Assembly: GCF_000195295.1 (NCBI RefSeq)
Contig: NC_015388.1
Coordinates: forward strand, 1,116,001-1,180,000
Reading direction: 5' to 3'
Length of the DNA stretch: 64,000 bases
Source of the DNA: Desulfobacca acetoxidans DSM 11109
GTDB taxonomy: Bacteria; Desulfobacterota; Desulfobaccia; Desulfobaccales; Desulfobaccaceae
Shown here: positions 7,605 through 23,490 of the stretch, in pieces
Position numbering within the stretch: the stretch's first letter is position 1
Layout of the letters: the number at the start of each line of letters is the position of its first letter
The notes under the pieces: model-generated
What the model was told of the DNA's origin: nothing
What the model saw: only the letters and a program-made list of their open reading frames with translations
The model's database searches: none
Made by a program: the position numbers and the translations under genes

Positions 7605-10600
7605 ATGGTCCTATCAAATATAATGGAAGAGGAACTTAATAAATATGCCGAAGAGATATCTGCTACCTTCAGCCTGCCCATAACCTTCAATCCAGAAGAT
7701 CAATTGAAAACCCCCGTGGCCGGCCTGCTTAGACGCTCGGGGGCAGTGATGGGGGTGGCCATCGAGGTGGTGACCGAAATCCACGCCAAGGAATTGGGGC
7801 GGCCGGATATGGGGGTAGTGGTCGAGGGCCTGTTGAACGGCCATGTGGAATTAAAGGCTCCGGGAAAAGGGGCCAACCCCGAAAAGTTCAAAGGCGGAGA
7901 CCGAGGCCAATGGGAAAGGTTCCGCAACCTGCCGAATCTCATATACACCGACGGCAATGATTGGGCCTTGTATCGCAGCGGCGCCCGGCAGGGGGGCGTG
8001 GTGCGCCTCTCCGGAGATGTGACCCGAGACGGGCGAAAGGCTGTGGGCGGCAACGATGCAGCCGCTTTGGAGGTATTGCTGCGGGATTTTTTCACCTGGC
8101 AGCCCATCGTCCCCGCACTGCCGGCGGCCTTGGCCCAGATGCTGGCCCCTTTATGCCGCCTGTTACGCAGTGATGTCTTGATAGCATTACAAAAGCCGGA
8201 TTCCAACCTGAATCTACTAGCCGCCGACTGGCGGCGTTATCTTTTTCCCGATGCCGATGATCTGCAATTTGCCGACGCCTATGCCCAAACCCTCACCTAT
8301 GCCCTCCTTCTGGCCCGCCTGACTGGGAAAGGCGAGGGATTATCCGTCCATGACGCTGTCACCACCATCCGCACCGGCCACCGCCTACTGGCCGATACCC
8401 TGAACATCCTTGGCGATCCCAAGGCCAGGGACGAGATCAAAACCCCGGTGGATCTGCTGGAGCGGGTCATCGGGGCCATTGACCCGGCCGCCTTCCTAAA
8501 AAAGAGTAAGGGCGAACCCTGGCTCTATTTTTATGAAGATTTTCTGGCGGCCTATGATCCAAAGATGCGCAAGGAACGGGGCGTATATTACACGCCGGTA
8601 GAGGTGGTACAGGCCCAGGTGCGCCTCGTGGCGGAATTGCTCACCGAGCGTTTTGAGGCGGATTACTCCTTTGTCAGCCCCGACGTAGTCACCCTGGACC
8701 CCGGGGCCGGCACCGGCACCTATATCCTGGCGGCGCTGCAACACGGGTTGCAGCAGATAGAGGAGGCCAAAGGGCCGGGTATGAGGGCCAAGGCCGCTGC
8801 GCAAGCCGCCCGGAATATTCATGCCTTTGAAATCCTGGTGGGACCCTATGCCGTGGCCCACCTGCGTCTGACTCAAGAAATCCTGGCCGAGGGCGGGCAA
8901 CTGCCCGAGGACGGCGTCCACGTCTATCTGACGGACACCCTGGAATCGCCCCTCAAGCCCTTGCCCCACTTCCCTTTTATGTACAAAGAACTGGCGGCAG
9001 AACACCAGCGGGCCCAGCAGGTGAAGGCCGCGGCCCCGGTGCTGGTCTGTCTGGGCAATCCGCCGTATGACCGCCAGCAGATAGACCTGGAGAACCAGAA
9101 GTCGATTAAACGGAAAGGCGGCTGGGTGCGCTATGGCGATAACCTAATCGGCGACCGCCCGCTCCTGGCAGATTTCCTCAAGCCTTTAGAAGAGCTGGGT
9201 TGGATGGTGCACGCCAAAAACCTCTACAACGATTATGTCTATTTCTGGCGCTGGGCCTTGTGGAAGGTCTTTGAAAACAAGGGCGGCCCCGGCATTGTCA
9301 GCTTCATCACCGCGTCTTCGTATCTGCGGGGGCCGGGCTTTGCCGGAATGCGCCAGGTGATGCGCCAGATGTTTGACGAAATGTGGATCATAGACCTGGA
9401 GGGCGGCAGTCTGGGGGCGCGCAAAACCGAAAACGTCTTTGCCATCCGCACGCCAGTGGCCATCGCCATCGGGGTACGCCACGGCGAGCCGCAGCCGGAA
9501 AGCGCGGCCACGGTGCACTATACGAGGATCAGCGGGACCAGGCAGGAAAAGCTAAAAGCCCTGGCACAGGTTGAACAGTTCAGCGACCTGCCCTGGCGGG
9601 AGTGTCTGCCCGGATGGACCGACCTGTTTTTACCCACGAGCGATAAACCATACTGGAACTGGCCGCTGGTGACCGATATTTTCCCATGGCAGGAAAACGG
9701 GATTCAATTCAAAAGAACCTGGCCTATTGGCGAGACTTGGGAAGTTTTGAAAAATCGCTGGGAAAAACTAGTCAGAGAAATTCCGGGGAAAAAAGGTCTA
9801 CTGCTGCGAGAAACAGAAGCCCGTAAGACAACAAGCACAATTCATGATCCAGTTAACGGTAATAATTTATTATCGCTGAATAATATTGATTTAGAGACGA
9901 AAGCTCCAGAAATAGTTCCTTACGGATATCGGAGCCTCGATAGAAGGTGGGCTTTACTAGACGTACGTCTCTGCGACAGGCCGAGGCCGAATCTGTTGAG
10001 AGCACACAGCAACCGCCAGATTTACCTTACCAGCCTGTTAACAGAGGTTTTGGGTAATGGATCTGGAGCATTGGCAACCGATCTGATCCCTGACTTGCAT
10101 CATTTTCGAGGTTCTTTCGGCGGTGCCCATATCATTCCCCTCTGGCGGGACGCCGAAGCCACGGAGCCCAACATCACCCACGGAGTATTAGAGGTTCTCA
10201 CCGACACCTACAGGTGGGACGTCACGCCGGAGGACCTCCTGGCCTATACCTACGCCCTCCTGGCCTCGCCGGAATATGTGCGCCGGTTTTGGGATGAATT
10301 GACCATTCCGGGGCCGCGGCTGCCTATTACAAAGGACGCCTCTTGGTTCAATAGGGCCGTGGAGCTGGGCCGTCGCCTGATCTGGCTGCACACCTATGGG
10401 GAGCGTCTCGTTCCCCCCGGCCAGAAACCCGGTCGGGTGCCACCGGGCCAGACCAAATGTATGGTGGGGACTCCGGCCGATCCCAAGAACTACCCGGAAA
10501 CGTTTTCTTATGATGCGGCAGGGCGCAAGCTGCACGTGGGCCACGGGGTTTTTGCGCCGGTGGGCTCGGAAGTATGGGAGTTCAGCGTTTCGGGGTTCGA

Positions 10601-10880
10601 GGTAGTCAAATCCTGGCTGGCCTATCGGATGAAGAAGGGGGCCGGGAAAAAATCTTCTCCCCTAGATGACATCCGGCCGGAACGGTGGGAGTTCGATGAG
10701 GAGTTGCTGGATCTGCTCTGGGTGTTGGAACATACAGTGGCGATGTGGCCGGAGTTGGGAAAGGTATTGGATGCCATTGTGGCGGATAGGTTATTTGTTG
10801 CTAAAGATTTTCCCGAGCCGACGCCGGTGGAACGGGCGGCGAAGAAGGCGGCACCACTGTTCGAGATGGCGGACGGTTAG
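7605..10880 (+). CDS. Single-chain Type IIG-like restriction endonuclease / N6-adenine methyltransferase
   Basis: A 1091-aa protein that seems to combine cleavage, methylation and DNA recognition. The N-terminus has a candidate PD-(D/E)xK nuclease site: PD at 67-68 and E82-L83-K84 (HVELKAPG). The methyltransferase core has AdoMet motif I DPGAGTG at 365-371 and catalytic motif IV NPPY at 485-488, the N6-adenine (gamma class) signature. The remaining 500 residues, with YTYALLASPEYVRRFW, resemble the specificity region of type ISP/IIG enzymes. No helicase motifs were seen, unlike full type ISP enzymes. It has no partner genes, stands between asnS and prfB, and is flanked by palindromes. A solitary methyltransferase with a dead nuclease is the alternative. 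Confidence 0.85.
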   Translation: MVLSNIMEEELNKYAEEISATFSLPITFNPEDQLKTPVAGLLRRSGAVMGVAIEVVTEIHAKELGRPDMGVVVEGLLNGHVELKAPGKGANPEKFKGGDRGQWERFRNLPNLIYTDGNDWALYRSGARQGGVVRLSGDVTRDGRKAVGGNDAAALEVLLRDFFTWQPIVPALPAALAQMLAPLCRLLRSDVLIALQKPDSNLNLLAADWRRYLFPDADDLQFADAYAQTLTYALLLARLTGKGEGLSVHDAVTTIRTGHRLLADTLNILGDPKARDEIKTPVDLLERVIGAIDPAAFLKKSKGEPWLYFYEDFLAAYDPKMRKERGVYYTPVEVVQAQVRLVAELLTERFEADYSFVSPDVVTLDPGAGTGTYILAALQHGLQQIEEAKGPGMRAKAAAQAARNIHAFEILVGPYAVAHLRLTQEILAEGGQLPEDGVHVYLTDTLESPLKPLPHFPFMYKELAAEHQRAQQVKAAAPVLVCLGNPPYDRQQIDLENQKSIKRKGGWVRYGDNLIGDRPLLADFLKPLEELGWMVHAKNLYNDYVYFWRWALWKVFENKGGPGIVSFITASSYLRGPGFAGMRQVMRQMFDEMWIIDLEGGSLGARKTENVFAIRTPVAIAIGVRHGEPQPESAATVHYTRISGTRQEKLKALAQVEQFSDLPWRECLPGWTDLFLPTSDKPYWNWPLVTDIFPWQENGIQFKRTWPIGETWEVLKNRWEKLVREIPGKKGLLLRETEARKTTSTIHDPVNGNNLLSLNNIDLETKAPEIVPYGYRSLDRRWALLDVRLCDRPRPNLLRAHSNRQIYLTSLLTEVLGNGSGALATDLIPDLHHFRGSFGGAHIIPLWRDAEATEPNITHGVLEVLTDTYRWDVTPEDLLAYTYALLASPEYVRRFWDELTIPGPRLPITKDASWFNRAVELGRRLIWLHTYGERLVPPGQKPGRVPPGQTKCMVGTPADPKNYPETFSYDAAGRKLHVGHGVFAPVGSEVWEFSVSGFEVVKSWLAYRMKKGAGKKSSPLDDIRPERWEFDEELLDLLWVLEHTVAMWPELGKVLDAIVADRLFVAKDFPEPTPVERAAKKAAPLFEMADG

Positions 10881-10948: not shown

Positions 10949-12059
10949 TTAGGAAACGGCCGTACTGAGCAGATAGGCTTCGATGAAAGCATCTAGATCG
11001 CCGTCCAGGACAGCTTCAACATTGCCTTCCTCATGTTTGGTCCGGTGATCCTTGATCAGACGATAAGGCTGAAGGACATAAGAGCGGATCTGGCTGCCCC
11101 AGGCAATATCTTTCTGGGCATCGAGCACAACTTGGGCCTTTTCCTGACGCTTGCTCTTCTCCAACTCATACAACCTGGATTTCAGCACTCTCATGGCCAA
11201 TTCCCGGTTGCGGTGTTGGGAGCGCTCGTTCTGCATGGAAACCACGATACCGGTAGGAATATGGGTGAGGCGCACCGCCGAACTGGTCTTATTGACATGT
11301 TGGCCGCCAGCGCCGCTGGCCCGGAAGGTATCGATCCGCAGATCCTTCTCCTGGAGGTCGATCTGGATGTCCTCATCCGCTTCCGGATAGACAAATACCG
11401 CAGCAAACGAGGTGTGACGGCGGCCGCTGGCATCGAACGGTGAGATGCGCACCAGTCGATGGATGCCGCTCTCGGACTTCAGATAGCCATAAGCATGAGG
11501 GCCGCTGACCGCAAAGGTGGAGCTTTTGACGCCTGCTTCGTCACCCGGCAACAGATCATATATCTCGGTCCTAAACCCCTGGCGCTCTGCAAACCTGAGA
11601 TACATCCGCAGGAGCATTTCGGCCCAATCCTGGGCTTCAGTCCCGCCAGCACCGGCATGTATGGTTATGATCGCATCCTTGTCATCGTCCTCGCCTCCCA
11701 AGAGCATTTCCAACTCCAACTGCTGCAGGGCTCTTTCCTGCACCTTGAGATCAGTGAGAACATCGACAAAGGCCTGCTCATCAGTCTCCTCCTGGGCTAA
11801 CTCCAGAAGTACTTCCAGGTCTTCAATCTTTTTGCCCTGCTCTTGCCACACGGTCAAGAGGTGAGTCAGGGCGCCGCGTTCTTTGAGAATCTGTGAACTT
11901 TGAGAGGAATTTTGCCAAAAATCGGGTTTGGCGGCTAGGACTTCTATCTCCGCCAGGCGGGCTTTTTTCTTTTCTAAATCAAAGACGACCTCGCAGTTGG
12001 GAATAGCGTTGAGAAAGGGTTGACAAACGATTTTTCAGATCAGCAGGGTTTATTAACAT
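10949..12059 (-). CDS. prfB: Peptide chain release factor 2, with programmed +1 frameshift
   Basis: RF2 recognises UGA and UAA stops and triggers peptide release. Starting at ATG 12059 (RBS AGGAG at 12070-12066), 26 codons run to an in-frame TGA at 11981-11979. Skipping one base at CTT-TGA joins the frame that ends at 10949, giving 369 aa, close to E. coli RF2 (365). The peptidyl-release motif SGAGGQHVNKT is present in domain 3. The long open frame alone (from 11857) would lack the N-terminal helices, so the frameshifted product is the real one. Convergent with the upstream restriction gene. Confidence 0.96.
11979..11992 (-). promoter_or_regulatory. prfB programmed +1 frameshift site
   Basis: The slippery CTT codon (11984-11982) is followed directly by the TGA stop (11981-11979), with a Shine-Dalgarno-like GAGGT (11992-11988) three bases upstream. 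This matches the autoregulatory RF2 site: low RF2 makes ribosomes pause at the UGA and shift, restoring RF2. Confidence 0.93.
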
Positions 12060-12404
12060 ATACATCTCCTCATAAATAATGTCAGTTATAACGTCTGGCA
12101 GGCTAGCCGGCTGCAGTCAAGATGGTTGCCTGTGTCCCCTCAAACCTCTGTCCTATCTCTTCAACCTGCATATCCTTTCCGCAAGAGGGAAAAAGTAGGG
12201 GGGCGGACCTGAGACATCACAGTTAATCAGGGTTACCAAGCTGGAAAATGGTCACGCGGGGAACTGCTTTTAACGCATCTTATTATAAATAATATCATAG
12301 ATTTTATTTGAATACTACAAGAAGTTTTCCCTGCCCCGGGAGCATATTAAAGGCGCTAAGGTGTGACCTTTGTGGAGTAAAAAATAGAGGAGTACTCACG
12401 GGCA
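12060..12404. other. Intergenic region upstream of prfB
   Basis: This 345-bp stretch holds the prfB leader and RBS (12070-12066) and presumably its promoter within the AT-rich part at about 12270-12320. I could not assign boxes with confidence. The end of the FeoA-domain operon is on the left edge of the next gene at 12405. No convincing gene or terminator was found. Confidence 0.4.
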
Positions 12405-13109
12405 CTATTCCACCCAGATATTTTCAGCCTGGTTTTTATCCAGACAAAGTCTCAGTCCCAGGGCGGTTTCAATAATTATGGCGCATTCTTCGCCCATGCA
12501 CAATGGGGGTAGGGGTTCTATTCCCTTTAAGCGCAGGAGAGTTTGAGGCCTGATACCGATTGTTCCTAAGTTCATATGAGCCCGTTTGCTTCCTAAAAGT
12601 TTCTCGACCTGGAAAGGCTCTCCCATGGGAGAGAGAGGTAGCTGACAGGATTCCCTGCCACTAGCCGGACGTCCCCAAATTTTTGTCGCCAAACCGCTCA
12701 GGAGGGCTATATGCCTTTTATCATCAACCAGACAAAGATAGCGCATGACCGGCAACAGGGTTTTGAGTTGAATTTCTTCGCCAATGACAAGTCCCAGAAT
12801 AGTTAAGGACTCCCGGAGCTGCCGTCCTCCCCGAAAGTTGACAATCGCGGCCCGTTCTCCGACTGCCAGCTTTGCCAGCGGTATCTCCTTTTTATCTTGT
12901 GTGACGATAACCTTTTCGCTCATACCGCTGGGCAGGAGGACGTGCCCCTTGGAGGTCAGGAGGAACAATATGGGATAGCGGTTCTCTTCTTTTATTTTTG
13001 AAATTACCTGGCCTATTGTAATGCCCAGGTCGCGCAAATCTTCGAGTCCCTTCCCCAATCCGACTACTCGCAAGGGTGTATCAAAAGAAGCCTCCCAAAG
13101 CGTACTCAT
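12405..13109 (-). CDS. Protein with repeated FeoA-like domains, last gene of the ferrosome-like operon
   Basis: A 234-aa cytoplasmic protein apparently made of consecutive FeoA-like SH3 domains at about 1-70, 75-145 and 160-232. The middle one is clearest (LAVGERAAIVNFRGGRQLRE followed by LGLVIGEEIQLK); the first (LRDLGITIGQVISK) and third (LGTIGIRPQTLLRLKG) are more diverged. Normal FeoA is about 75 aa with one domain and assists FeoB. Its start overlaps the stop of the SCA-type P1B ATPase gene by 4 bp, so the two are co-translated, suggesting it modulates that pump rather than FeoB. That role is inference. A scaffold or metal sensor is also possible. Confidence 0.75.
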   Translation of the reverse strand: MSTLWEASFDTPLRVVGLGKGLEDLRDLGITIGQVISKIKEENRYPILFLLTSKGHVLLPSGMSEKVIVTQDKKEIPLAKLAVGERAAIVNFRGGRQLRESLTILGLVIGEEIQLKTLLPVMRYLCLVDDKRHIALLSGLATKIWGRPASGRESCQLPLSPMGEPFQVEKLLGSKRAHMNLGTIGIRPQTLLRLKGIEPLPPLCMGEECAIIIETALGLRLCLDKNQAENIWVE

Positions 13110-15175
13110 TTTTTCTCCTCTCCGCTTAGGCTTAAGGAGCGCATGAGAATCCCCACGGTAATGGAATTATGGAAAATCGAAGTGACCAGGGGAGAGATCC
13201 GACCCAAAAGCGCCAAAACCAATATTGCTGAATTCAAACCCGTGGCCAGGTAAAAGTTCTCCCGGGTATAGCTTATGGTCTGTTTGGAGAAGGAATAAGC
13301 CCACGGCAGGGGGCGCAGGTCATCCTTTTGCAGCAGGACCGAAGCGGTTTCCCGGGCCAGGGAAGATCCCTCCCTCAGGCAGATCCCCACATCAGCGCAT
13401 ATGAGGCCGGGGGCATCGTTGGCTCCGTCTCCGATAAATGCCACGGTTTCGCCCTCTTTTTTCAGAGAGTTGATAAACCCACCCTTCTCTTCCGGCAAGA
13501 ATTCCCATTTTACTTCATCGATCCCTAATTTTTGGCCAATGGCCTGAGCGGCTTGGCGGTTGTCACCGGTGAGCATAATAATTCTCCGGGCGCCAAGGTC
13601 TTTCAGGTTTTTTATGGTGTCTTTGGCTTCAGGTCTCACGGTTTCGTTCAAGGCCAAGAGGCCGATGAGCTTGCCCTCCTCGGCGATATAGAGGATGTTA
13701 TTGCCGGATTTATATAATTCCTGTTCCGGGACGTCAGCCGGGAGACAATTGATACCCTCATCATCCTCTAAAAAATGTCGGCTGCCCACCAGGATTTTCT
13801 TTCCTGCAATGATCGAGCTGACCCCATGAGCGACAATATATTCGGCCAGGCTCCGGGGAAGAAGTGGGACCCCTCTCCTGGCGGCTTCCTGGCTTAAGGC
13901 CTGAGAGAGAGGATGGTTGTAAGGTGCTTCGGCGGTGGCTGCCAGACTTAATATTCTTTCTTCGGAAGACGCCCCGTCGAGGGGGATAATTTCACTCAAC
14001 TGCAGGGAACGCTCGGTCAGGGTGCCGGTCTTATCAAAGACGAAGGTAGTAACTTTAGAGAGCTTCTCCCAGGAGCGGCCATCCCGGACCAGTATCCCCT
14101 CGGTCGCAGCGCGATACATACTGGCCCGCAGGGCAATAGGAGCAGAGAGTTTCAAGGCACAGGAATAATCTACACAAAATACCCCGGCAGTTTTCTGCAC
14201 ATTTCGGGTAAGGGCAAAAACCCCCGTCCCGAGGCCGAAGGTGAGAGGTACCAATTGATCGGCCAAGGCCTCGCTCTCCCGTTGATACGGGGCTGGCCGC
14301 TGGATGGCGGTGGTGATAAATTTCCCTATTCTGGCCATGGTGGTCTCGGCTCCGACCCTTTCGGCCTGATAGGTAATATGGCCTTCCTCGAGCACGCTGC
14401 CGGCCAGGACCTGGCTGCCCGGCTGCAGGTGCACCGGAACATATTCGCCGGTAATGGCAGACTGGTTGGCCAAGGCGTCTCCTGACACCACAGTCCCATC
14501 CACGGGCATGAGTTCTCCGGTATGCCCAATGATCAGGTCACCGACCCGAAGCGATTTGACCTCTACCTCCACTTCCTGGCCATCCAGATTAATCCAGGTT
14601 TTGTCTACCGGCGGCTTCAAGAGCTGGCGCAACAGCCGGTGAGACTTTCTTTCGGTGCTGTCCTGCAAGTACTCCCCTAGGGTGAGCAAGAAATTGATGG
14701 CATTGGCAGTAAGATAATCCCGGCGCAGCAAAGACAGGGTAACAGCCGTGGCATCAAGAACTTCTACCTTCAGCCCCTGTTTGACAAGTGTAGAGATCCC
14801 TCCCCAGACCAGCGGGAAGCAGGAAATCCAACTCAGCACCGGCACCAGTCGATGGGGAAGGAGAAAGGTTAACAGCACCATGGCGCCGCCGCGGTAGACA
14901 TCCCCCATATCTGTCTGTTGTGCCGGCTCTATTTCCTCGCCCAGGACTTCCATCGGTAGAGACTCCAAGGCCTGGAGAATCCTAATTTTTGCAGGTTCCC
15001 CGCCGGTGAAATGAACCGACAGCGAACACGCCATGGCATTGACCCGGACCGCGGTCACATCCTCCATTGCCCCCAGGTAGTCCTCCAGATAGGTCTCATC
15101 AAAAGCCGGATCACACAGAAAATGAGCTCTTAAACGGAGGCGACTTCGGGTTTCATGGACTATCTGAAATACCAT
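13106..15175 (-). CDS. fezB: P1B-type metal ATPase with SCA motif, FezB-like (ferrosome iron pump candidate)
   Basis: A 689-aa P-type ATPase. It has an actuator TGE (ITGEYVPV), phosphorylation motif DKTGTLTE, an HP motif (YNHPLSQAL) and hinge GDGANDAP, so the catalytic cycle looks intact. In the transmembrane metal site it has SCA (DYSCALKLSAP) where copper and zinc pumps have CPC. To my knowledge SCA marks the P1B-6 subgroup that includes FezB, the ATPase of ferrosomes. The N-terminal 80 residues resemble an HMA fold (VHETRSRLRLR) but lack CxxC. Neighbours are small glycine-rich membrane proteins and FeoA-like domains. Iron as substrate is inferred from subgroup and context. Confidence 0.8.
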   Translation of the reverse strand: MVFQIVHETRSRLRLRAHFLCDPAFDETYLEDYLGAMEDVTAVRVNAMACSLSVHFTGGEPAKIRILQALESLPMEVLGEEIEPAQQTDMGDVYRGGAMVLLTFLLPHRLVPVLSWISCFPLVWGGISTLVKQGLKVEVLDATAVTLSLLRRDYLTANAINFLLTLGEYLQDSTERKSHRLLRQLLKPPVDKTWINLDGQEVEVEVKSLRVGDLIIGHTGELMPVDGTVVSGDALANQSAITGEYVPVHLQPGSQVLAGSVLEEGHITYQAERVGAETTMARIGKFITTAIQRPAPYQRESEALADQLVPLTFGLGTGVFALTRNVQKTAGVFCVDYSCALKLSAPIALRASMYRAATEGILVRDGRSWEKLSKVTTFVFDKTGTLTERSLQLSEIIPLDGASSEERILSLAATAEAPYNHPLSQALSQEAARRGVPLLPRSLAEYIVAHGVSSIIAGKKILVGSRHFLEDDEGINCLPADVPEQELYKSGNNILYIAEEGKLIGLLALNETVRPEAKDTIKNLKDLGARRIIMLTGDNRQAAQAIGQKLGIDEVKWEFLPEEKGGFINSLKKEGETVAFIGDGANDAPGLICADVGICLREGSSLARETASVLLQKDDLRPLPWAYSFSKQTISYTRENFYLATGLNSAILVLALLGRISPLVTSIFHNSITVGILMRSLSLSGEEKK

Positions 15176-15184
15176 TACTCTTCC

Positions 15185-15361
15185 CTAACGATAGAGATTA
15201 TGGTGCCAGATCGAAAAGCCAATCAGAGCGGCTGCCGCCCACAGGTGGAGAGTCCTGGCCCCCCGGCCTCTCATAAAACCGGTAACCGCCAAAGCTCCCA
15301 TGGAGCAAAGCATGGCAGTTTTTGCGGCACTGCGTTTTTCCTTTAAGGATGCCTGCAACAT
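15185..15361 (-). CDS. Small membrane protein (58 aa) upstream of the SCA-type ATPase
   Basis: A short open frame starting at ATG 15361 with an AGGAG ribosome-binding site 5 bases upstream. The product has a basic N-terminus (SLKEKRSAAK), two short hydrophobic stretches (AMLCSMGALAVTGFM and LWAAAALIGFSIW) around a basic GRGAR turn, and ends HHNLYR. It is therefore probably a two-helix hairpin membrane protein. The stop lies 9 bp before the ATPase start, which argues for co-translation. I recognise no family. A His-rich end and position suggest an accessory part of the putative ferrosome pump; this is inference. Confidence 0.7.
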   Translation of the reverse strand: MLQASLKEKRSAAKTAMLCSMGALAVTGFMRGRGARTLHLWAAAALIGFSIWHHNLYR

Positions 15362-15426
15362 ATTCTTCTCCTGGGCAAATCAGGTAACCCTGGCTACTGC
15401 TGGTTATTTTTCCGATCTGCGAACCA

Positions 15427-15452
15427 TAGGTGCAGCTTAGTCACTGCACCTA
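15427..15452. repeat. Perfect 9-bp inverted repeat inside the ferrosome-like operon
   Basis: TAGGTGCAG (15427-15435) and CTGCACCTA (15444-15452) flank an 8-base loop. It lies in the 187-bp gap between the 108-aa and 58-aa membrane protein genes, the longest gap in the operon. There is no T-run, so it is more likely an mRNA stem-loop or operator than a terminator. Confidence 0.5.
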
Positions 15453-15548
15453 AGTCCGCAAATAGTTTTTCGAAGCAGGTGCTCGGGTAACTCAGTGTTT
15501 GCCAACTTCTTACCGCCAACTGACAACCATCCACTGACCCCCTGATGG

Positions 15549-15875
15549 TTAGGTTTCTTCTGCGGCAGCCTGCATTTCCGCTCGGACATCCCGGGCCTGC
15601 TCCTTTAATTCCTCCACTCCTCCCATAATAGAGTACCAGAGCGAGGCCGCCCCCCTGACGACCGCCCTCTGCACCGTGGGATTGGCGACCAGGAACCCCA
15701 GCAAAGCGCCAATGACAAAGCCCTTGACATAGCGAGCTTCGCCGAAATTTATCCAGCCATCAAAATAACCTAACGGAACCGGATTTGCCGTTTGGTCCTG
15801 GTACTGCTGGTATTGTTGATACTGAGGAGGATAAACCTGTGGTGCCGGCATATGATGATGTGGTGTAAATGACAT
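15549..15875 (-). CDS. Small membrane protein, putative ferrosome-associated
   Basis: A 108-aa protein with a His/Pro/Tyr/Gln-rich N-terminus (three consecutive His, and PPQYQQYQQYQ), one glycine-containing transmembrane helix (KGFVIGALLGFLVA) and a charged amphipathic C-terminal helix (EELKEQARDVRAEMQAA). The KG-x3-GA...TV helix is shared with the C-terminus of the Gly/Pro-rich protein at 16249-17103, so the two are likely paralogous in that module. It sits between other operon genes with short gaps. No known family is recognised with confidence; a structural role in an iron organelle is inferred from context. Confidence 0.75.
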   Translation of the reverse strand: MSFTPHHHMPAPQVYPPQYQQYQQYQDQTANPVPLGYFDGWINFGEARYVKGFVIGALLGFLVANPTVQRAVVRGAASLWYSIMGGVEELKEQARDVRAEMQAAAEET

Positions 15876-15893
15876 TGATCCCTCCGTGATGTT

Positions 15894-16235
15894 TTACTTT
15901 TTTTCAGAGGCAACGGCAGTATCCCAGAGATACTTGGTTCCGGTGGCAGTAGCCACGAGGGCCAAAAAACCCAGAATTCCCGTGGCCCCCAAGGTACCCG
16001 CGACCGCCGCCGCCGCGGCAGAAGCAATTCCACCTCCGGCGGCCTCTTTAAAGGTATTTCTTATTGCTTCTTCCCGGGTCATCTCGCCGGCTTTGACCAG
16101 ACGAATGCCTCTGGCCGCAGCGCCGGCTCCCACCGCCACAGCCCCCACGACTCCGGAGACTAACGCCATTCGGGGCACCAGGGGAGTAACCGGCCGGGTC
16201 GGATATTGATAGTAGCCCGTATGAGAATGCTTCAT
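15894..16235 (-). CDS. Glycine/alanine-rich membrane protein, putative ferrosome-associated
   Basis: The preferred ATG is 16235, with GGAGG seven bases upstream, giving 113 aa; a longer frame to 16271 would overlap the preceding gene. Two glycine/alanine-rich hydrophobic segments (VSGVVGAVAVGAGAAARG and the long ASAAAAAVAGTLGATGILGFLALVATATG) are separated by a short charged stretch (LVKAGEMTREEAIRNTFKEA). Such Gly-rich helices recall magnetosome and ferrosome membrane proteins, but I do not claim homology. The N-terminus is His/Tyr rich (KHSHTGYYQYP). It sits tightly between neighbours in the same operon. Confidence 0.75.
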   Translation of the reverse strand: MKHSHTGYYQYPTRPVTPLVPRMALVSGVVGAVAVGAGAAARGIRLVKAGEMTREEAIRNTFKEAAGGGIASAAAAAVAGTLGATGILGFLALVATATGTKYLWDTAVASEKK

Positions 16236-16248
16236 TATTGTTCCTCCA

Positions 16249-17103
16249 CTATTTTTTCTCTTCTTTGCCACCGAAGAAATGGGTCCACATGTTGCCGAGG
16301 GACTCTTTGACGGTATCGCTGGTCAACACCACCGCCACCACGGCGCCAAGCAAAGCGCCTTTCCAGAAATCCCCAGAGCCGCTGTCCAGCCACGAGGCCA
16401 TACCGTCCCAATTAGGATTCCCGTTGGCCAGATCACTGAGCATGTTAGTGATCCCGTAGCGATGCTCCTGAAATTTGGGATGACCCCCCATCATCCCGCC
16501 GGGATGGCCTGGGCTATATCCGCCACAACTGCAACCGGCCTGGGCCATCGGGCCCATATCGCCATAGCCATAAGGAGGCGTTACAGGAGGCCCATAAGGC
16601 GGTGTGCCACCATGTCCATACGGGGGAGCGGCGCCATGCCCATAAGGCGGCGTGCTGCCGTGCCCGTAAGGCGGAGCGACTCCATGTCCATACGGGGGAG
16701 CGGCGCCGTGCCCATACGGTGGTGTGATCCCGTGTCCATAAGGCGGAGTGCCTCCATGAGAGGGACCGGCCTGACCGGGTCCCATCATCTGAGGGCCGCC
16801 CATCCCAGGTCCCGACATCATGCCACCGGGGTGCGGACCGGGCATTCCTGAGGACCCTTCACACGAGCAGCCTGCCTGACCGTGAGCTGGCCCCATCATC
16901 TGTGGACCCCCCATACCATTGCCGCCTCCTGCTTCCGGCCCCATCATCTGAGGGCCGCCCATCCCGGCTCCATCCCCCATGCCGCCCGCCATCGGCGCCG
17001 GTCCGGGATGCATACCGGGGTTCTGACCCTGAGGGGGCATTTCTGGCCCGCCTCCCGGTCCCGAATCCGCCTGTTGGCAGATATTAGCCCAATCTTTTTC
17101 CAT
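16249..17103 (-). CDS. Gly/Pro/Met-rich repeat protein with C-terminal membrane helix
   Basis: A 284-aa low-complexity protein. Residues about 40-115 hold three GMGGPQMMGP repeats. Residues about 118-185 hold eight copies of an octapeptide around PPYGHG (the last two vary), encoded by a 24-bp tandem repeat at about 16570-16760. Two CSC motifs (AGCSC) flank these regions. The C-terminus (FWKGALLGAVVAVVLTSDTV...) is one transmembrane helix, related to the module in the 108-aa protein. His, Met and Cys could bind metal, and the flexible domain could coat or template an iron mineral; both are inference. Its start overlaps the next upstream gene by 20 bp. Confidence 0.8.
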   Translation of the reverse strand: MEKDWANICQQADSGPGGGPEMPPQGQNPGMHPGPAPMAGGMGDGAGMGGPQMMGPEAGGGNGMGGPQMMGPAHGQAGCSCEGSSGMPGPHPGGMMSGPGMGGPQMMGPGQAGPSHGGTPPYGHGITPPYGHGAAPPYGHGVAPPYGHGSTPPYGHGAAPPYGHGGTPPYGPPVTPPYGYGDMGPMAQAGCSCGGYSPGHPGGMMGGHPKFQEHRYGITNMLSDLANGNPNWDGMASWLDSGSGDFWKGALLGAVVAVVLTSDTVKESLGNMWTHFFGGKEEKK

Positions 17104-17533
17104 CCTCTTCCACCTCCGTCTTCTGCTGGTGAGAAAGTAAGCGATTAATAAAGCGCACTGCTGAAGCTTCCGTGTTCAGAAATTCCTCCCATTGTCCGGG
17201 GGACAATTTTTTCGGGTCATAAGTAATAACTGCGGAAAGTGCTAAGGTGTTTATATCTATGCTCTTAATTCCATTTCCCTGACACCCTGCCAGGCTTTTC
17301 AGACGGGAAAGATCGATATTGCCGATATCTTCAATCTTATCAAAGACATTTGCTGATAATCGCAATCGTATCCGGCCGGGGATATGGTGGGCCACTGTAA
17401 CCAGAGAACGAAGTTCCAACAGACTATTTAGATCCACTGAGCCATCCTTTTCCTTCCAGAAGCGGAAAGAATAAATAAAGTTTTTACCGGGCCGCCCTTC
17501 ACTCTGAACCGAAAGGGGCGTTTGGTAGGACAC
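17084..17533 (-). CDS. HMA-like domain protein lacking CxxC (FezC-like candidate)
   Basis: A 149-aa protein. After about 45 residues comes a ferredoxin-like HMA-type domain, VAHHIPGRIRLRLSA ... ALSAVITYDPKKLSP. The H-x4-R-[LI]-R-L-[RK] start motif also begins both P1B ATPases in this operon. None of the three has the metal-binding CxxC of ordinary HMA domains, so they probably serve protein-protein contact or a different chemistry. Ferrosome clusters are known to include an HMA-domain protein besides the ATPase; I recall it as FezC, but cannot confirm that identity here. It lies 14 bp after the CPC-type ATPase gene and overlaps the Gly/Pro-rich gene. Confidence 0.7.
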   Translation of the reverse strand: MSYQTPLSVQSEGRPGKNFIYSFRFWKEKDGSVDLNSLLELRSLVTVAHHIPGRIRLRLSANVFDKIEDIGNIDLSRLKSLAGCQGNGIKSIDINTLALSAVITYDPKKLSPGQWEEFLNTEASAVRFINRLLSHQQKTEVEEDGKRLG

Positions 17534-17547
17534 AACTATTTGTAACT

Positions 17548-19749
17548 TTAATGAATCGCCAGAGTGTCTAACCGTCGGGAATCCGGCAGTTGCGTTTCTG
17601 CCTGGGAGTCGGCATAAGTCTCATTGGATTGTGGGGCAAAAGTCAGCAATCGGCTGGAGTTGGCCATAATCCCGAGACTGTGGGCCACGTGAAAAAGACC
17701 GGCCAACACCGGAGGGAGAAACCCCAGAATACCTAAGCCGGCTCCGATAAGATCGGTGCTGGTTGCCAGCCAAAAGTTCTGGTAGACGATTTTCAGGGTT
17801 TGCTGGCTCAATTCCCGGAGATACAGTACTTTTGCCAGATCTCCGTTGGTAAGCACGACATCGGCGGTGGCCAGGGCGATCTCCGAGCCTCCGCCGCCTA
17901 CGGCAATGCCGATATCCGCCTCCGCCAGGGCCAGGGCGTCGTTTACCCCGTCTCCCACTACCACCACCTTATGCCCGTTTCCCTTGAGCTCATTAACGAC
18001 CCGGGCTTTATCCTCCGGCAGTAGTAAGCTGTAGTGGACGTCGAAAGGCAGATGTCGTAACACCTGGCGCGCCACTTCGGCCTTATCCCCCGTGATCATC
18101 ACGGTTTTTTTCACCCCGCGGGCCTGGAGGGCCTCTAGCAACCCGGCGGCGCCCCTTTGCAGGTGGTTATCGATGCCAATCAGGCCTAAAGTGGTATCCT
18201 CCACGGCCACGTATACTATTGTCTGTCCCCGCGCCTCGGCTTTTTGAGCTTCCCTCGTCAGGACAGGAACCAGATGAATGTGCTCCTTCTCTAAAAATCG
18301 TTCATTGCCCACCAGTACCTGTTTGCCCTGAACCTCGGCTCGCACCCCTGATCCCAGGATATAATCGCACAGAGCATGGGGGAGAGGTCGAACCCCTTGC
18401 CGTTGGGCCTCTTGTTTGATCGCACTGGCTATGGGGTGTTTGTTGTGTTGTTCGGCTGACACCGCCCACTCCAGCAGGGTTTCAGGTTTTGTACCATTGG
18501 CCCCCAGAATCAGGCTCACCTGGGGCTGACGGGGGGTAATGGTGCCGGTTTTATCGAAGCAGTAAGTATCGGCAGTTCCGACTTCTTCCAGATAACGACC
18601 GCCCTTGATCAAAATTCCCTTGCGCATGGCCGCATAAAGGCCGCTACTGATGGCGCTGCCGGCAGCCAGAGCCGTAGCACAGGGGCACGCCATGGTCAGC
18701 ATAACGGCAAAAGTTTTGGCAAAGTTGGCTGTGATCAGGTAGGTGGCCCCGGTGGCGATAAGACCGGCGCGCAACATCCGTTCCCCCAGCTTGTCTGCCA
18801 CCCTTTGCACCTCGGCGCGATTGGACAGGGCCTCTTCAGCCAGTTTTAAGACCTGCCGCAGATAGAGATCCTCTCCCACCCTCTGGGCTCTGACCGTGAT
18901 GACTCCTTCCCGGATATAGCTGCCGGCAAAGACAAATTCACCCGCGGCCTTTTTTTCGGGCTGGAGTTGGCCGGTGATATGGGCGGTATCCACCAAAGCC
19001 GTTCCATGGATTATCTCACCATCTACCGGCACCCGCTCGCCGCTGTGCAGAACGACCTCATCCTTAACCTGCAGGGCGTCAAAAGGTATTTCGATTTCTA
19101 CGCCTTCTTGAAGAATAAAGACCTTTTCCCCGGCCAGAGAAAACAGTTCTCTGATCTTTCTCTGGGACTTGTCTGCCAAATAATCTGTGAGCAGATGGGA
19201 ACCTTCTTCTATCCACAGCACTTGTAAAGCCGCCAGCGCCTCGCCGGCCCCCACCGCGGCCAGAGCCGCCCCTCCGATAAAAGTCTCTAATGAAATTCCC
19301 GGCTTGTCTTTCCTTTCCGTCAGGCCGGATTTCAAAGTTGACAGTGAAGAAAGGCCCGCCACCAGGCCTAAGACACTAAAAGGTCCCTGGGCAATGGCCT
19401 GCTTCAACAGAACTTTTTTGATGAACACGTATCCCATGCAGGCTGTGAGCCCGAGAAAGCGGGCCATAGAACCTCTCAGGCTCTTGGGGCTCCCACGCCG
19501 GGCAGGAATAGTAAGACCTTTCACTTTGAAAAATCCCTTGACCTCGGACAGCACCGCCGGCTGCGTGATTTTCTTCGGATAGTAGCGGATGACCAGACTG
19601 TTGCTTTTTACTCGCCGTTCTACCGAAAAGATAGCCTTCTGCTCTAAGAGATACTGTTGCAGGTCTCTAAGCAGACTACCTTCTTCCCGCCGAAGGGATA
19701 TTTTTAGGCGCAGGCGCCCTGGAATGGCATGGCAGACTTCGTAAACCAT
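17548..19749 (-). CDS. P1B-type ATPase with CPC motif and altered TGE (TGQ), first gene of the operon
   Basis: A 733-aa P-type metal ATPase preceded by an AGGAG site. It has CPC in the membrane site (MACPCATALAAG), DKTGTITP, HP (NKHPIASAI) and GDGVNDALAL. The actuator loop reads ITGQLQPEKKA: the TGE glutamate that positions water for dephosphorylation is glutamine (codon CAA at about 18974). The N-terminal HMA-like domain starts VCHAIPGRLRLKIS and lacks CxxC. CPC usually means copper, or zinc/cadmium, but neighbours point to iron. The pump may be slowed or serve as a partner subunit of the SCA-type ATPase. It leads the operon down to 12405. Confidence 0.85.
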   Translation of the reverse strand: MVYEVCHAIPGRLRLKISLRREEGSLLRDLQQYLLEQKAIFSVERRVKSNSLVIRYYPKKITQPAVLSEVKGFFKVKGLTIPARRGSPKSLRGSMARFLGLTACMGYVFIKKVLLKQAIAQGPFSVLGLVAGLSSLSTLKSGLTERKDKPGISLETFIGGAALAAVGAGEALAALQVLWIEEGSHLLTDYLADKSQRKIRELFSLAGEKVFILQEGVEIEIPFDALQVKDEVVLHSGERVPVDGEIIHGTALVDTAHITGQLQPEKKAAGEFVFAGSYIREGVITVRAQRVGEDLYLRQVLKLAEEALSNRAEVQRVADKLGERMLRAGLIATGATYLITANFAKTFAVMLTMACPCATALAAGSAISSGLYAAMRKGILIKGGRYLEEVGTADTYCFDKTGTITPRQPQVSLILGANGTKPETLLEWAVSAEQHNKHPIASAIKQEAQRQGVRPLPHALCDYILGSGVRAEVQGKQVLVGNERFLEKEHIHLVPVLTREAQKAEARGQTIVYVAVEDTTLGLIGIDNHLQRGAAGLLEALQARGVKKTVMITGDKAEVARQVLRHLPFDVHYSLLLPEDKARVVNELKGNGHKVVVVGDGVNDALALAEADIGIAVGGGGSEIALATADVVLTNGDLAKVLYLRELSQQTLKIVYQNFWLATSTDLIGAGLGILGFLPPVLAGLFHVAHSLGIMANSSRLLTFAPQSNETYADSQAETQLPDSRRLDTLAIH

Positions 19750-19874
19750 AATTCTCCTGCTCGCTGGGGATAAGCAGCTATCGGGATGTGACGTGTCCCC
19801 GGATGCAAAGGTATTTTTAGAAACTAAGACTCAATATCAATAGATTTTCCAACGAGTCATCATCTTCCCAGAAT
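19750..19874. other. Leader/promoter region of the ferrosome-like operon
   Basis: This holds the RBS (AGGAG) for the CPC-type ATPase gene and, on the minus strand, AT-rich sequence from 19858 to 19805 with TTGGAA and TTGATA candidates. No pair with good -10 spacing stands out and no clear Fur or DtxR box was found. Confidence 0.35.
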
Positions 19875-19990
19875 CACAACGAAGTATGAAAACAGAATCG
19901 TGGCAGCTGCTCACAATAATGCTTTTTCGGCTCACCGCTCACCGCTCACTGCCCTGCCCACGGCTCACGGCTCACTGTTTTTATACAAGT
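19875..19990 (+). repeat. Direct repeat, copy 1 (about 116 bp) with CGGCTCAC units
   Basis: Starts cacaacgaag, contains aacagaatcgtggcagctgc and several short CTCACCG/CTCACGG units, and ends ctgtttttatacaagt. It repeats with few changes at 20008-20104. A related copy on the opposite strand is at 29364-29413. It lies between feoB and the ferrosome-like operon, and the in-frame ORFs here are made only of repeat. Confidence 0.75.
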
Positions 19991-20007
19991 GCTCATGTTC
20001 TGCCGAA

Positions 20008-20104
20008 CACAACGAAGCATAAAAACAGAATCGTGGCGGCTGCTCACAATAATGTTTTTGCTGCTCACGGCTCACGGCTCACGGCTCACTGTTTTTATAC
20101 AAGT
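20008..20104 (+). repeat. Direct repeat, copy 2 (97 bp)
   Basis: Second copy of the element at 19875-19990, shorter because it has fewer CTCACGG heptamers. The remainder of the gap up to 20215 shows no gene. Confidence 0.75.
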
Positions 20105-20215
20105 TGGCTCATCCGGTGCGGCAATTGTCAGACCACCGCCTGAGATTGTTTTTTTAAGGGAGAGTTGGAGGGTCAAGGGGAGGAGAAAGATTTGGACTCT
20201 CTCCCCCTCTGAACA

Positions 20216-22408
20216 TTAAATCCCGCTTCCCACCTGGTAAACCATAACCGCAATGACATATGCCAGCACGGTGTTAAAAGCCACGGCAAACAAGGCCCAG
20301 TTCCAGGAGGATTCTCGGGCCATGGCCACCACGGTCACAAAACAAGGGGCATAGAGCAACACAAAGATAATCAGGGATAGCACCGCCGGAATGGTCCAGT
20401 GGGGGTCAGCGGCAATCTTTTGGGTCAGGCTTTCGGGTTCTTCCGGGTCCACCGTTCCTAGGGAATAGGCAGTGCCCAGAGTGGCGACAATCACCTCCTT
20501 GGCGGCAAACCCGCCGATGAGAGCGATATTGGTCTGCCAGTTGAAGCCGGCCAGACTCATCACCGGTTCGATGGCGTGCCCCAGGCGCCCGGCCACCGAA
20601 TACTCCAATGCCGCTTCGCTCTGTTTATCGGCGATTTCAGATAGTTTCTCCTTGAGCAGCTTATCTTTATCCTCGTCCGACAGGTTCTCCCGGGTGGCTG
20701 TTGCCGCCACCTCCTGCTCCGCAACTGCCTTTTGCTGTTCGTAATTTTCGACCTGGTTGGCAGGGAGCTGGGGGAAGGTCATGGCCGCCCAGAGCAGGAT
20801 GGCAATGGCCAGGATGACGGTGCCGGCCTTCTTGAGATATTGCCAGGTGCGGTCCCAGGTGTGGGTCAGCACGCCACGCAGGGTGGGGAGCCGGTAAGGA
20901 GGCAGTTCCATGATAAACGGAGTGGATTCCCCTTTGATCACCGTCCAGCGCAAGATTCTGGAAACTACCAGGGAGGCGGCCCAGGCGCCCAGGGTAATGA
21001 AAAACATGATCTTGGCCTGGCTCTGCTCAAAAAAGGCCCCTACCATTAGGACAAAGACCGGGATCTTAGCGCCGCAGACCTGAAAGGGGGCCGTGATGAT
21101 GGTGGCCAGCCGTTCTTTGGGGCTCCTCAGGGTTCTGGCCGCCATGACCCCGGGCACGGCGCAGCCCCCGGGCAAGCCGCCGGAGATAATCAGGGGCATG
21201 ACCGAGGCGCCGTGCAGACCGAAGACGCGCACCACCCGGTCCATCATGTACGCCACCCGGGCCATATATCCCAGGTCTTCGAGAAAGGTGACCAGGGCAA
21301 ACATGATCAGGATGAGCGGCACAAAGCTCAGGACACTGCCGACACCGCCAATGATGCCGGAAACAATCAGCGATTGCACTAACCCTTCGGGTATCAGACT
21401 GGTAAAGGTATCCCCCAGCCAGCCGAAGAAGACATCCAGCCACCCTTTGGGGTATTCTCCCACGGTAAAAGTAATATGGAAAATGGCATACAGTACGGCA
21501 ATCATGATCGCCGGCCCCAGCAGTTTGTGGGCCAGCACCTTATCCAGACGGTCAGACTGGTCAAAACGCTCGTGGGAGGCGGTGACCAAAACGTTGGGCT
21601 GCCGGAGCACAGAGTTGATAAAACCATACCGGTGGTCGGCGATAATGGCCTCGGGGTAAGAGTTGAAGTTTTTCTGACAGAGCTCTTCCACCGTGATGAC
21701 CATTTCCTCTAATTTACGGGAGATGGAACCGGTCTGTCGGCCGGCGGCCATAATCTTTTCATCTCCTTCCAAATACTTCAGGGCGATCCAACGGGCGGGA
21801 TAGCGCTCGGTCATAAAGTTGGCCGCCTCAATCATGTGGGTCATGCCCGCCAGGATGGGATCAATGTCCGGTCCGTAAGAGATTTCCAAGGGTTTCCATT
21901 CATGGCCGGATTTTCGGGCAACGGCGACTGCCTCCCGGACAATATCCTCTTTGCCATCGCCTTTGCGGGCCACGGTTTCCACTACTGGAACCTGCAATAA
22001 CTCACCTAAACTCTTACTATTTATCCGGATGCCCTTCTTTTTTACTTCATCCATCATGTTCAAGGCCAGGACTAAGGGAATTCCCAGTTCCATGAACTGC
22101 ACTGCCAGATAGAGGCTGCGTTCCAAGGCGGTGGCGTCTATGATGTCCACTACCACGTCCACCTTCTCATCCACCAGAACCTCACGGGCCACCACCTCTT
22201 CCAGAGAATAGGCGGTCAGAGAATAGGTTCCCGGGATATCGATGAGGTGTACCTCCTTGCCGTTATGACGGTACGAACCTTCTTTACGCTCCACGGTTAT
22301 GCCGGGATAATTGCCGACTCGCTGATGGGCCCCGGTTATGGCATTGAACATGGTGGTTTTTCCGCAATTAGGATTGCCGGCCAGGGCTACCGTGATATTT
22401 TCCGCCAC
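20216..22408 (-). CDS. feoB: Ferrous iron transporter FeoB
   Basis: A 730-aa inner-membrane Fe(II) transporter. The N-terminal G domain shows G1 GNPNCGKTT, G3 DIPGTYSL and G4 NMMD. The C-terminal membrane part has the two Gate regions (with GGLPGGCAVPGVMAARTL and FAAKEVIVATLGT) and many helices. The cytosolic loop around 560-600 is rich in Glu, Lys and Ala. feoA starts just upstream with a 2-bp gap, so the pair is an operon with the DtxR-type regulator ahead. In anaerobes FeoB is the main route for Fe(II), consistent with supplying the adjacent storage cluster. Confidence 0.96.
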   Translation of the reverse strand: MAENITVALAGNPNCGKTTMFNAITGAHQRVGNYPGITVERKEGSYRHNGKEVHLIDIPGTYSLTAYSLEEVVAREVLVDEKVDVVVDIIDATALERSLYLAVQFMELGIPLVLALNMMDEVKKKGIRINSKSLGELLQVPVVETVARKGDGKEDIVREAVAVARKSGHEWKPLEISYGPDIDPILAGMTHMIEAANFMTERYPARWIALKYLEGDEKIMAAGRQTGSISRKLEEMVITVEELCQKNFNSYPEAIIADHRYGFINSVLRQPNVLVTASHERFDQSDRLDKVLAHKLLGPAIMIAVLYAIFHITFTVGEYPKGWLDVFFGWLGDTFTSLIPEGLVQSLIVSGIIGGVGSVLSFVPLILIMFALVTFLEDLGYMARVAYMMDRVVRVFGLHGASVMPLIISGGLPGGCAVPGVMAARTLRSPKERLATIITAPFQVCGAKIPVFVLMVGAFFEQSQAKIMFFITLGAWAASLVVSRILRWTVIKGESTPFIMELPPYRLPTLRGVLTHTWDRTWQYLKKAGTVILAIAILLWAAMTFPQLPANQVENYEQQKAVAEQEVAATATRENLSDEDKDKLLKEKLSEIADKQSEAALEYSVAGRLGHAIEPVMSLAGFNWQTNIALIGGFAAKEVIVATLGTAYSLGTVDPEEPESLTQKIAADPHWTIPAVLSLIIFVLLYAPCFVTVVAMARESSWNWALFAVAFNTVLAYVIAVMVYQVGSGI

Positions 22409-22410
22409 GA

Positions 22411-22644
22411 TTAACCCTCCGTCTCCACCGTGATGTGGTCGGCTTCACTATTGCGCAGGGCCATGGTGAAACCTTTCAACCGCAAGGCCACCGGGTCCAG
22501 GAGTGGCGCCCGGCCGACAATCAAGACTTCCGTGCCGGGCAACAGCCCCATGTCCCTGATTCGCCGGCCCAATTCTTTGTTGGCGGCCACCGTTTTGATA
22601 ACCGCGCGCTCGTTTAAATCCATGTGCCGCATTGACTTCACCAT
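22411..22644 (-). CDS. feoA: FeoA accessory protein
   Basis: A 77-aa single SH3-like FeoA domain (LNERAVIKTVAANKELGRR, MGLLPGTEVLIVGRAPLLDP), the standard partner of FeoB thought to regulate its activity at the cytoplasmic face. It lies 66 bp downstream of the DtxR-family gene and 2 bp upstream of feoB. ATG 22644 is the longest start; an inner Met at residue 5 or 8 is possible. Confidence 0.93.
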   Translation of the reverse strand: MVKSMRHMDLNERAVIKTVAANKELGRRIRDMGLLPGTEVLIVGRAPLLDPVALRLKGFTMALRNSEADHITVETEG

Positions 22645-22710: not shown

Positions 22711-23490
22711 TTAGGGCAACTCCACTGTAATGGCAACCGCCTCTTCGCGGCGCAGAGAGAAATGATAACCCAGGACCTTCACCTCCACTGGATCACCATA
22801 AGGCCCCAGTCTCTCAACTTCTGCAACGATTCCTGGAATGAAACCGAGCTCTTGGACCCGTTGGCCTGGACTACTGGAGGTGTCTACGGAGAGAATTATT
22901 CCTTTTTCGCCAGGCTTAAGCTCATGAAGCAGTAAAGTCCGCGGCTTTTCTTGTTGTTGCCGTTCCTCAAAGTTTTCCAGGCATTGAAAAATGCACTGCT
23001 CACATTGTCTCCTTTGCGCGGCATCCTGGCAGAAACGTTGAAAATCCTGAAGCCACTCTCTGCCACTGCGAGGGCAGATATCGAGAAATTCCCCAAACTG
23101 GATGAGCCGGTCCACAATAACCCCCGGTATCGCACGTTCCATCAGGTAGGCGGCTTCTTCTGCGATTTTCTGGTCAATTCCGAGTATCTTGACGAAAAAT
23201 CCCTGGAGGACTTCATGACAGCGCACCACCCCCTTGGCAAGAATGATGCCTTCCGGGGTCAGTGTGATCAGGCCGTAGGGAGTGTAATTAATGAGCCGAC
23301 GCTCCGCTAACGTCTTGAGAGCTCCGCTTACTGTTGACTTGTGTAAATTCAAATAGCCGGCAATATCCTTGACCCGAGCTACCTGATTTTCTCGCTCCAG
23401 GTGATAAATCGCCTCCAGATAATCTTCCATCCTGGCGTTTAAGCTCGTTTCTCCCGTGGTTAGTTTGTCTTCATCCGGAAAGTCCTTCAT
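22711..23490 (-). CDS. DtxR/MntR-family metal regulator with Cys-rich insert and C-terminal FeoA domain
   Basis: A 259-aa regulator. Residues 20-80 are the winged helix (RMEDYLEAIYHL, VKDIAGYLNLHKSTVSGALK). Residues 85-135 are the dimerisation domain, and 187-259 form a FeoA/SH3 domain. The MntR-type N-terminal ligands (Asp and Glu of MEDYLEAIY) and one His (RCHEVL) are kept. In the helix EEAAYLMERAI the usual Glu-His ligand pair has become Glu-Arg. A segment absent from DtxR follows with Cys at 139, 154, 163, 166 and 170, which might hold an iron-sulfur cluster. First gene of the feo operon, so probably its iron-responsive regulator. Confidence 0.88.
   Translation of the reverse strand: MKDFPDEDKLTTGETSLNARMEDYLEAIYHLERENQVARVKDIAGYLNLHKSTVSGALKTLAERRLINYTPYGLITLTPEGIILAKGVVRCHEVLQGFFVKILGIDQKIAEEAAYLMERAIPGVIVDRLIQFGEFLDICPRSGREWLQDFQRFCQDAAQRRQCEQCIFQCLENFEERQQQEKPRTLLLHELKPGEKGIILSVDTSSSPGQRVQELGFIPGIVAEVERLGPYGDPVEVKVLGYHFSLRREEAVAITVELP

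Follow-up and report, generated by a model that had tools for sequence, protein, structure and literature searches.

Ferrosomes are recently described iron organelles of which few parts are known. They are membrane-bound iron stores found in Solidesulfovibrio magneticus RS-1, where FezB and FezC are reportedly responsible for the organelle, and a six-gene fez operon is said to be present in Shewanella putrefaciens. Six fez genes have also been described in Rhodopseudomonas palustris (RPA2333-2338; PMC12016538), and a published study describes FezC as a heme-binding, DUF4405-like cytochrome (PMC10979944).

The window analyzed here, i.e., the whole stretch of 64,000 nucleotides, comes from the closed, 3,282,536-bp genome of Desulfobacca acetoxidans, and an initial annotation had proposed that it contains a ferrosome gene cluster. 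By every sequence test that we ran, the locus is of the fez type. We consider it probable that it represents a six-gene-type fez operon that includes fezC, has gained two further genes characteristic of Desulfobacterota, and operates in the manner proposed below.

The locus and its neighbors

The eight co-directional genes that had been placed at 12405-19749 are all present and intact: this minus-strand block consists of eight open reading frames whose adjacent members either overlap or are separated by at most 188 bp (Table 1). From upstream to downstream, they encode a CPC ATPase, an HMA_2 protein, a Gly/Pro/Met-rich protein (GPM), a protein with two transmembrane (TM) segments, a PacL-like protein with a single TM segment, a 58-aa protein, an SCA ATPase, and a FeoA-domain protein (FeoAx), whose gene overlaps that of the SCA ATPase by 4 bp. 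The feoA, feoB and DtxR-type regulator genes that were thought to lie directly upstream are indeed there, on the same strand and in the order dtxR-feoA-feoB. Scans of the upstream regions with Fur, DtxR and MntR consensus sequences detected no box above shuffled sequences; a gene of the DtxR family is, however, next door.

Table 1. Features of the fez-type locus and the adjoining feo genes (window positions).
Feature	Position	Strand	Remarks
FeoAx, three tandem FeoA-like (SH3-like) domains	12405..13109	-	FeoA PF04023, E 4e-16
FezB-type P1B ATPase (SCA motif)	13106..15175	-	TM4 VDYSCALK, TM6 HNxxT
FezC-like DUF4405-type cytochrome, 58 aa	15185..15361	-	DUF4405 weak, E 0.012; RS-1 FezC profile match
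PacL-like protein	15549..15875	-	One TM segment, acidic coiled-coil-like tail; named by layout only
MamC-family relative, 2 TM segments	15894..16271	-	NCBIfam NF038051, E 1.3e-14
GPM, Gly/Pro/Met-rich protein	16249..17103	-	Tandem PPYGHG-type repeats, one C-terminal hydrophobic segment
Stand-alone HMA_2 protein	17084..17533	-	PF19991, E 4e-6, below gathering score
Second P1B ATPase, CPC clade	17548..19749	-	Degenerate HMA_2 N-terminus, TM4 CPCAT, TM6 HxxH
feoB, ferrous iron importer	20216..22408	-	Upstream of block
feoA	22411..22644	-	PF04023, E 1.6e-17
DtxR/MntR-family metalloregulator, C-terminal FeoA domain	22711..23490	-	PF01325, PF02742, PF04023

Two gene models are probably shorter than listed. 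Judged from the lengths of homologues, the HMA_2 protein more likely starts at 17437 (GTG, about 117 aa), and the gene for the 2-TM protein has a likelier ATG start at 16235, behind a GGAGG, yielding 113 aa. The HMA protein had been described as Cys-less, which is not strictly correct (it has one Cys), but it does lack a CxxC motif. The GPM gene contains 24-nt repeats at 16590-16758, and its product has a conserved C-terminal module that is related to the PacL-like protein.

Other features of the window are situated nearby. Between feoB and the CPC gene, at 19860-20110, a GTGAGCCGTGAGC / AAAACATTATTGTGAGCAGC block recurs in imperfect form and resembles a short interspersed repeat. On the minus strand at 10949-12060 is prfB (release factor 2) with its classic programmed +1 frameshift: the upstream frame stops at CTTTGA (...QLRGRL*), and the next frame resumes with DLEKKKARL. 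A large open reading frame of 1091 aa at 7605-10880 has, by eye, the look of an ISP-type restriction-modification protein or DNA methyltransferase.

FezB, FezC and the six-gene core

Relatives of FezB were gathered with one signature, VD[YF][SGA]C[AV][VLI]KL, using one genome per species; there were at least 591, and the 78 best loci were retained. The RS-1 genome, whose identity was confirmed by a plasmid contig that matches NC_012797.1 at 100% identity, has its fezB at 3.19 Mb with the same motif as the SCA ATPase of the window; C. difficile FezB was not among the sequences retrieved for comparison. In trees of P1B ATPases, which took in CopA, ZntA and other P1B ATPases of the host and RS-1 genomes, all SCA ATPases, including that of the window and RS-1 FezB, fell into a single clade (with an SH-aLRT of 100 in the large tree and 100/100 in the careful tree). 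This clade also holds FezB-type ATPases from Clostridia, Synergistes and Proteobacteria, and is separate from CopA, ZntA and other P1B types. A position of the SCA ATPase outside the P1B-6 clades would have spoken against the proposed ferrosome cluster, and its grouping with RS-1 FezB is the opposite result. Within the clade, the pump of the window belongs to the half of the six-gene type and RS-1 FezB to the other, the two being 36% identical over 611 columns. The TM4 Asp, Cys and Lys and the TM6 HNxxT motif occur in all 65 sampled members (65/65), such that the ATPase has both the phylogenetic position and the signature of a FezB-type P1B-6 pump.

The second comparison with RS-1 that the initial annotation had called for concerns FezC. 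In RS-1, the protein encoded directly after fezB has 146 aa and consists of an HMA_2 domain and a DUF4405-like hairpin (RS-1 FezC). A profile of the 58-aa family, built without RS-1, matches this protein at E 4e-8, and in the comparison of the family with FezC, residues H39, G48, W52 and H53 are invariant (20/20), the protein of the window thus retaining the heme-type histidines. Because of the profile match, the invariant residues and the heme binding reported for FezC, we regard the 58-aa protein as FezC-like on sequence grounds, its own match to the DUF4405 Pfam family being weak. The locus therefore shares with RS-1 fezABC both FezB and a cytochrome of the RS-1 type, but differs in that RS-1 FezC is fused to HMA_2, whereas the 58-aa protein is separate from it.

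The remaining small genes point to the other described operon type. In Shewanella, Vibrio, Photobacterium, Ferrimonas, Kluyvera, Pragia and other genera, co-directional HMA, GPM, MamC-like and PacL-like genes precede fezB in the order of the window, and these clusters have an additional divergent 119-aa HMA gene, bringing their total to six. These sets, those of Shewanella coming from species other than S. putrefaciens, are in line with the published six-gene operon type, the operons of R. palustris and S. putrefaciens being compared by description. Relative to this type, the window adds fezC, the CPC P1B ATPase and the triple-FeoA protein, and the divergent HMA gene of Shewanella is missing. 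The earlier claim that the gene set follows the fez plan is thereby supported, both by the FezB clade and by the correspondence of the small genes to the fez genes of these genera. Beside RS-1 fezB, there is no MamC-like, Gly/Pro/Met, CPC or FeoAx gene; and because RS-1 makes ferrosomes without them near fezB, MamC-like, CPC and FeoAx proteins would not be needed for ferrosomes in general.

An alternative explanation for this set of genes is that it forms a platform for the efflux and detoxification of Fe(II) at the plasma membrane, with FezB and the CPC pump exporting metal, PacL-like proteins serving as scaffolds, and no organelle being made. P1B ATPases usually export, the single-TM coiled-coil protein, whose gene is located directly before fezC/fezB in most loci compared, has the layout of the PacL proteins that cluster CtpC in mycobacteria, and the adjacency of feoB would also fit a balance of import and export. 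Nevertheless, the FezB and FezC of the locus resemble orthologues of the very RS-1 proteins that are said to be responsible for the organelle, and neither the Gly/Pro/Met-rich nor the MamC-like protein has an obvious role in plain efflux, so we view this explanation as unlikely.

Where the initial annotation had recognized three small membrane proteins, three are present, one of them FezC-like; it missed that another, the 2-TM protein, is related to MamC, which shapes magnetosome crystals. The match of the 2-TM protein to the MamC family (NF038051) extends over 82 residues and scores 54 bits, well short of the equivalog cut-off of 100. The same profile matches 11 of 12 aligned homologues, including that of Shewanella, as well as counterparts in other six-gene-type clusters, but neither six shuffled versions nor the reversed sequence. 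MamC-type matches were detected in only 12 of 395 genomes of the phylum, with the gene situated among fez genes in 11 of the 12, and in none of 14 control genomes. Given the profile match and the clean controls on the one hand and the sub-threshold score on the other, the sequence identifies the 2-TM protein as a real relative of the MamC family and not as MamC itself. It shares with MamC/Mms13 about 80 alignable residues and two TM segments with a charged loop, and differs both in its score and in that no magnetosome genes were seen nearby. A search of PDB with a profile of the MamC-like proteins returned nothing meaningful. Since most six-gene-type clusters encode a MamC-family protein, organelles that store iron and those that are magnetic may have a mineral-handling part in common, a link that is not drawn in the literature examined that names both ferrosomes and MamC, a body of work apart from the founding ferrosome papers.

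The CPC pump and the triple-FeoA protein

The second P1B ATPase belongs to a well-supported clade (100/100), whose members all possess CPCAT in TM4 and HxxH in TM6 (23/23). They have in common with CopA and ZntA the CPC motif of TM4, but at the TM6 position of the Met of CopA (Met711) and the Asp of ZntA (Asp714), they carry a His, followed by a second His three residues on. Hence a test for P1B-1 (Cu) or P1B-2 (Zn) pumps finds the CPC and, in place of the TM6 Met or Asp, HxxH; and because HxxH accompanies CPCAT, the pump is by its sequence neither a standard copper nor a standard zinc transporter.

It is conceivable that this pump is the main actor of a zinc or copper resistance operon in which the FezB-like pump is secondary. 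Cu and Zn pumps typically have a CPC motif, this pump exceeds the cut-off of TIGR01512 (the cadmium family), and pumps of its clade also occur alone. But the absence of the CopA and ZntA ligands from TM6 and the position of the cluster, adjoining feoAB and itself carrying FeoA domains, make such an operon very improbable. The occurrence of solitary pumps does imply that the CPC pump may act independently: in two loci of sister species, no fez genes accompany the CPC-clade ATPase, whose neighbors encode a HerA-like ATPase and an ABC exporter.

Because joint inheritance would give such a correlation, the close agreement of FezB and CPC distances (r 0.91, reached in 0 of 2000 permutations) is consistent with the two pumps having been inherited together, although part of it reflects shared species history. 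The CPC and FezB clades are not firmly placed as sisters (78/33), and we do not claim that FezB arose by duplication from a CPC pump. A locus in another genome of the same phylum (L035, 2639-7470) encodes two different CPC-type ATPases, the second of which looks intermediate, with CPC in TM4 but a FezB-like HNxxT in TM6.

Several FeoA-like domains had been noticed in FeoAx, and their number is three. The protein matches PF04023 with 59 bits against a gathering score of 23, all of its relatives match the family too (34/34), and its AlphaFold2 model (mean pLDDT 92) has three repeated domains. A whole-chain Foldseek search was weak (best E 0.02), but when FeoAx was aligned to PDB with VIA, the top 19 alignments were all to FeoA proteins or to SH3-like domains of the DtxR family, with Z from 4.3 to 10.2. 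FeoAx thus has the fold of FeoA and of the C-terminal domain of DtxR, but it contains three copies per chain and is encoded after fezB, not before feoB.

The association with FezB is very regular. FeoAx is the next gene after FezB, on the same strand, in 42 of 42 cases, 39 being within 150 bp and three slightly farther. It also follows FezB in Thiohalocapsa and Halochromatium, which showed no CPC gene in the vicinity of fezB. Of 149 genomes searched in the RS-1 family, 24 have FeoAx, and fezB adjoins it in every locus retrieved, one of which is cut by a contig end; RS-1 itself has none. Since FeoA is a partner of FeoB, the simplest guess is that FeoAx would, by analogy, be a partner of FezB.

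Distribution and a proposed working

A CPC-clade ATPase and FezB occur together in 28 of the loci that we examined, mostly in the order CPC-HMA-GPM-MamC-PacL-FezC-FezB-FeoAx, with the CPC gene divergent in two of them (L058, L061). Among them are loci of Desulfonema magnum and Solidesulfovibrio alcoholivorans (L063, with all eight genes), of numerous members of the RS-1 family and further genomes of the phylum, and of some metagenome bins labelled only Deltaproteobacteria. So many loci with nearly one order are far beyond chance, and the variant with CPC and FeoAx is centered on Desulfobacterota and is not an oddity of the host genome. The second P1B ATPase and the FeoA-like domains, which had been flagged as unusual, are both absent from the RS-1 locus and mark this variant; the cluster is a widespread eight-gene version, conserved in order among many sulfate-reducing relatives, and not a new kind of system. 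The literature examined, from which the founding ferrosome papers were absent, offered no description of this variant, and a search of the same scope found no paper combining 'ferrosome' with 'P1B'. Of 40 loci of the FeoAx/CPC type, 13 have feoB at a distance of up to about 10 kb in several arrangements (upstream, downstream or divergent), which links the variant to ferrous iron.

Among the relatives of the host, the distribution is sparse. Six other members of its family were searched, and their P1B ATPases included no FezB-level match; the MamC-like gene was found in none of 28 other genomes of the class (1/29 with the host). This pattern could mean that the locus is a relic that was gained by transfer and is out of use, since the sampled family relatives lack both FezB and the MamC-like gene. 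The eight frames are, however, open, their motifs intact, and their ribosome-binding sites and overlaps kept, which makes disuse highly improbable.

What the sequences show directly is homology, gene order, conserved motifs and joint inheritance; from these we infer that the host probably forms the organelle, and the direction of transport, the substrate of the CPC pump and what the MamC-like protein and FeoAx do are proposed in the same way. As known for these families, FeoAB would import Fe(II) into the cytosol, and FezB, a P1B-6 pump in the vesicle membrane, would load the lumen with it. The FezC-like cytochrome b may set the redox state of the iron (as in PMC10979944). The MamC-like and Gly/Pro/Met-rich proteins could line the membrane and organize or nucleate the iron mineral, while the HMA_2 and coiled-coil proteins might scaffold the pumps. 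FeoAx would be a partner of FezB in the cytosol, coupling or gating it in the way that FeoA acts on FeoB and perhaps handing iron from FeoB to FezB, and the CPC pump a second transporter in the same or a neighboring membrane, clearing other metals or returning metal. With a ferritin-family gene in its genome, the host may have iron stores besides ferrosomes.

A broader version of this model is that many Desulfobacterota possess a chemically distinct ferrosome with two pumps, with the triple-FeoA adaptor coupling import by FeoB to FezB and the mineral being controlled by a MamC-family protein. We put this forward tentatively, and on balance it is doubtful; if true, ferrosomes and magnetosomes would share a family of membrane proteins that shape minerals. 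For an organelle with so few recognized components, the eight-gene version names two candidate new ones: the second pump, whose metal site is unusual, and a partner for FezB that is built on FeoA.

Some relatives carry more than one such unit. A second FezB is encoded directly beside the eight-gene cluster in L186, L188, L189, L191, L193 and L051, sometimes together with a second, oppositely oriented MamC/HMA set, and in L051 two FezB-FeoAx units flank feoAB. The host genome itself has further feo loci (L045, 4513-8139, and L046), the first of which includes a DtxR-family regulator closely similar to that of the window.
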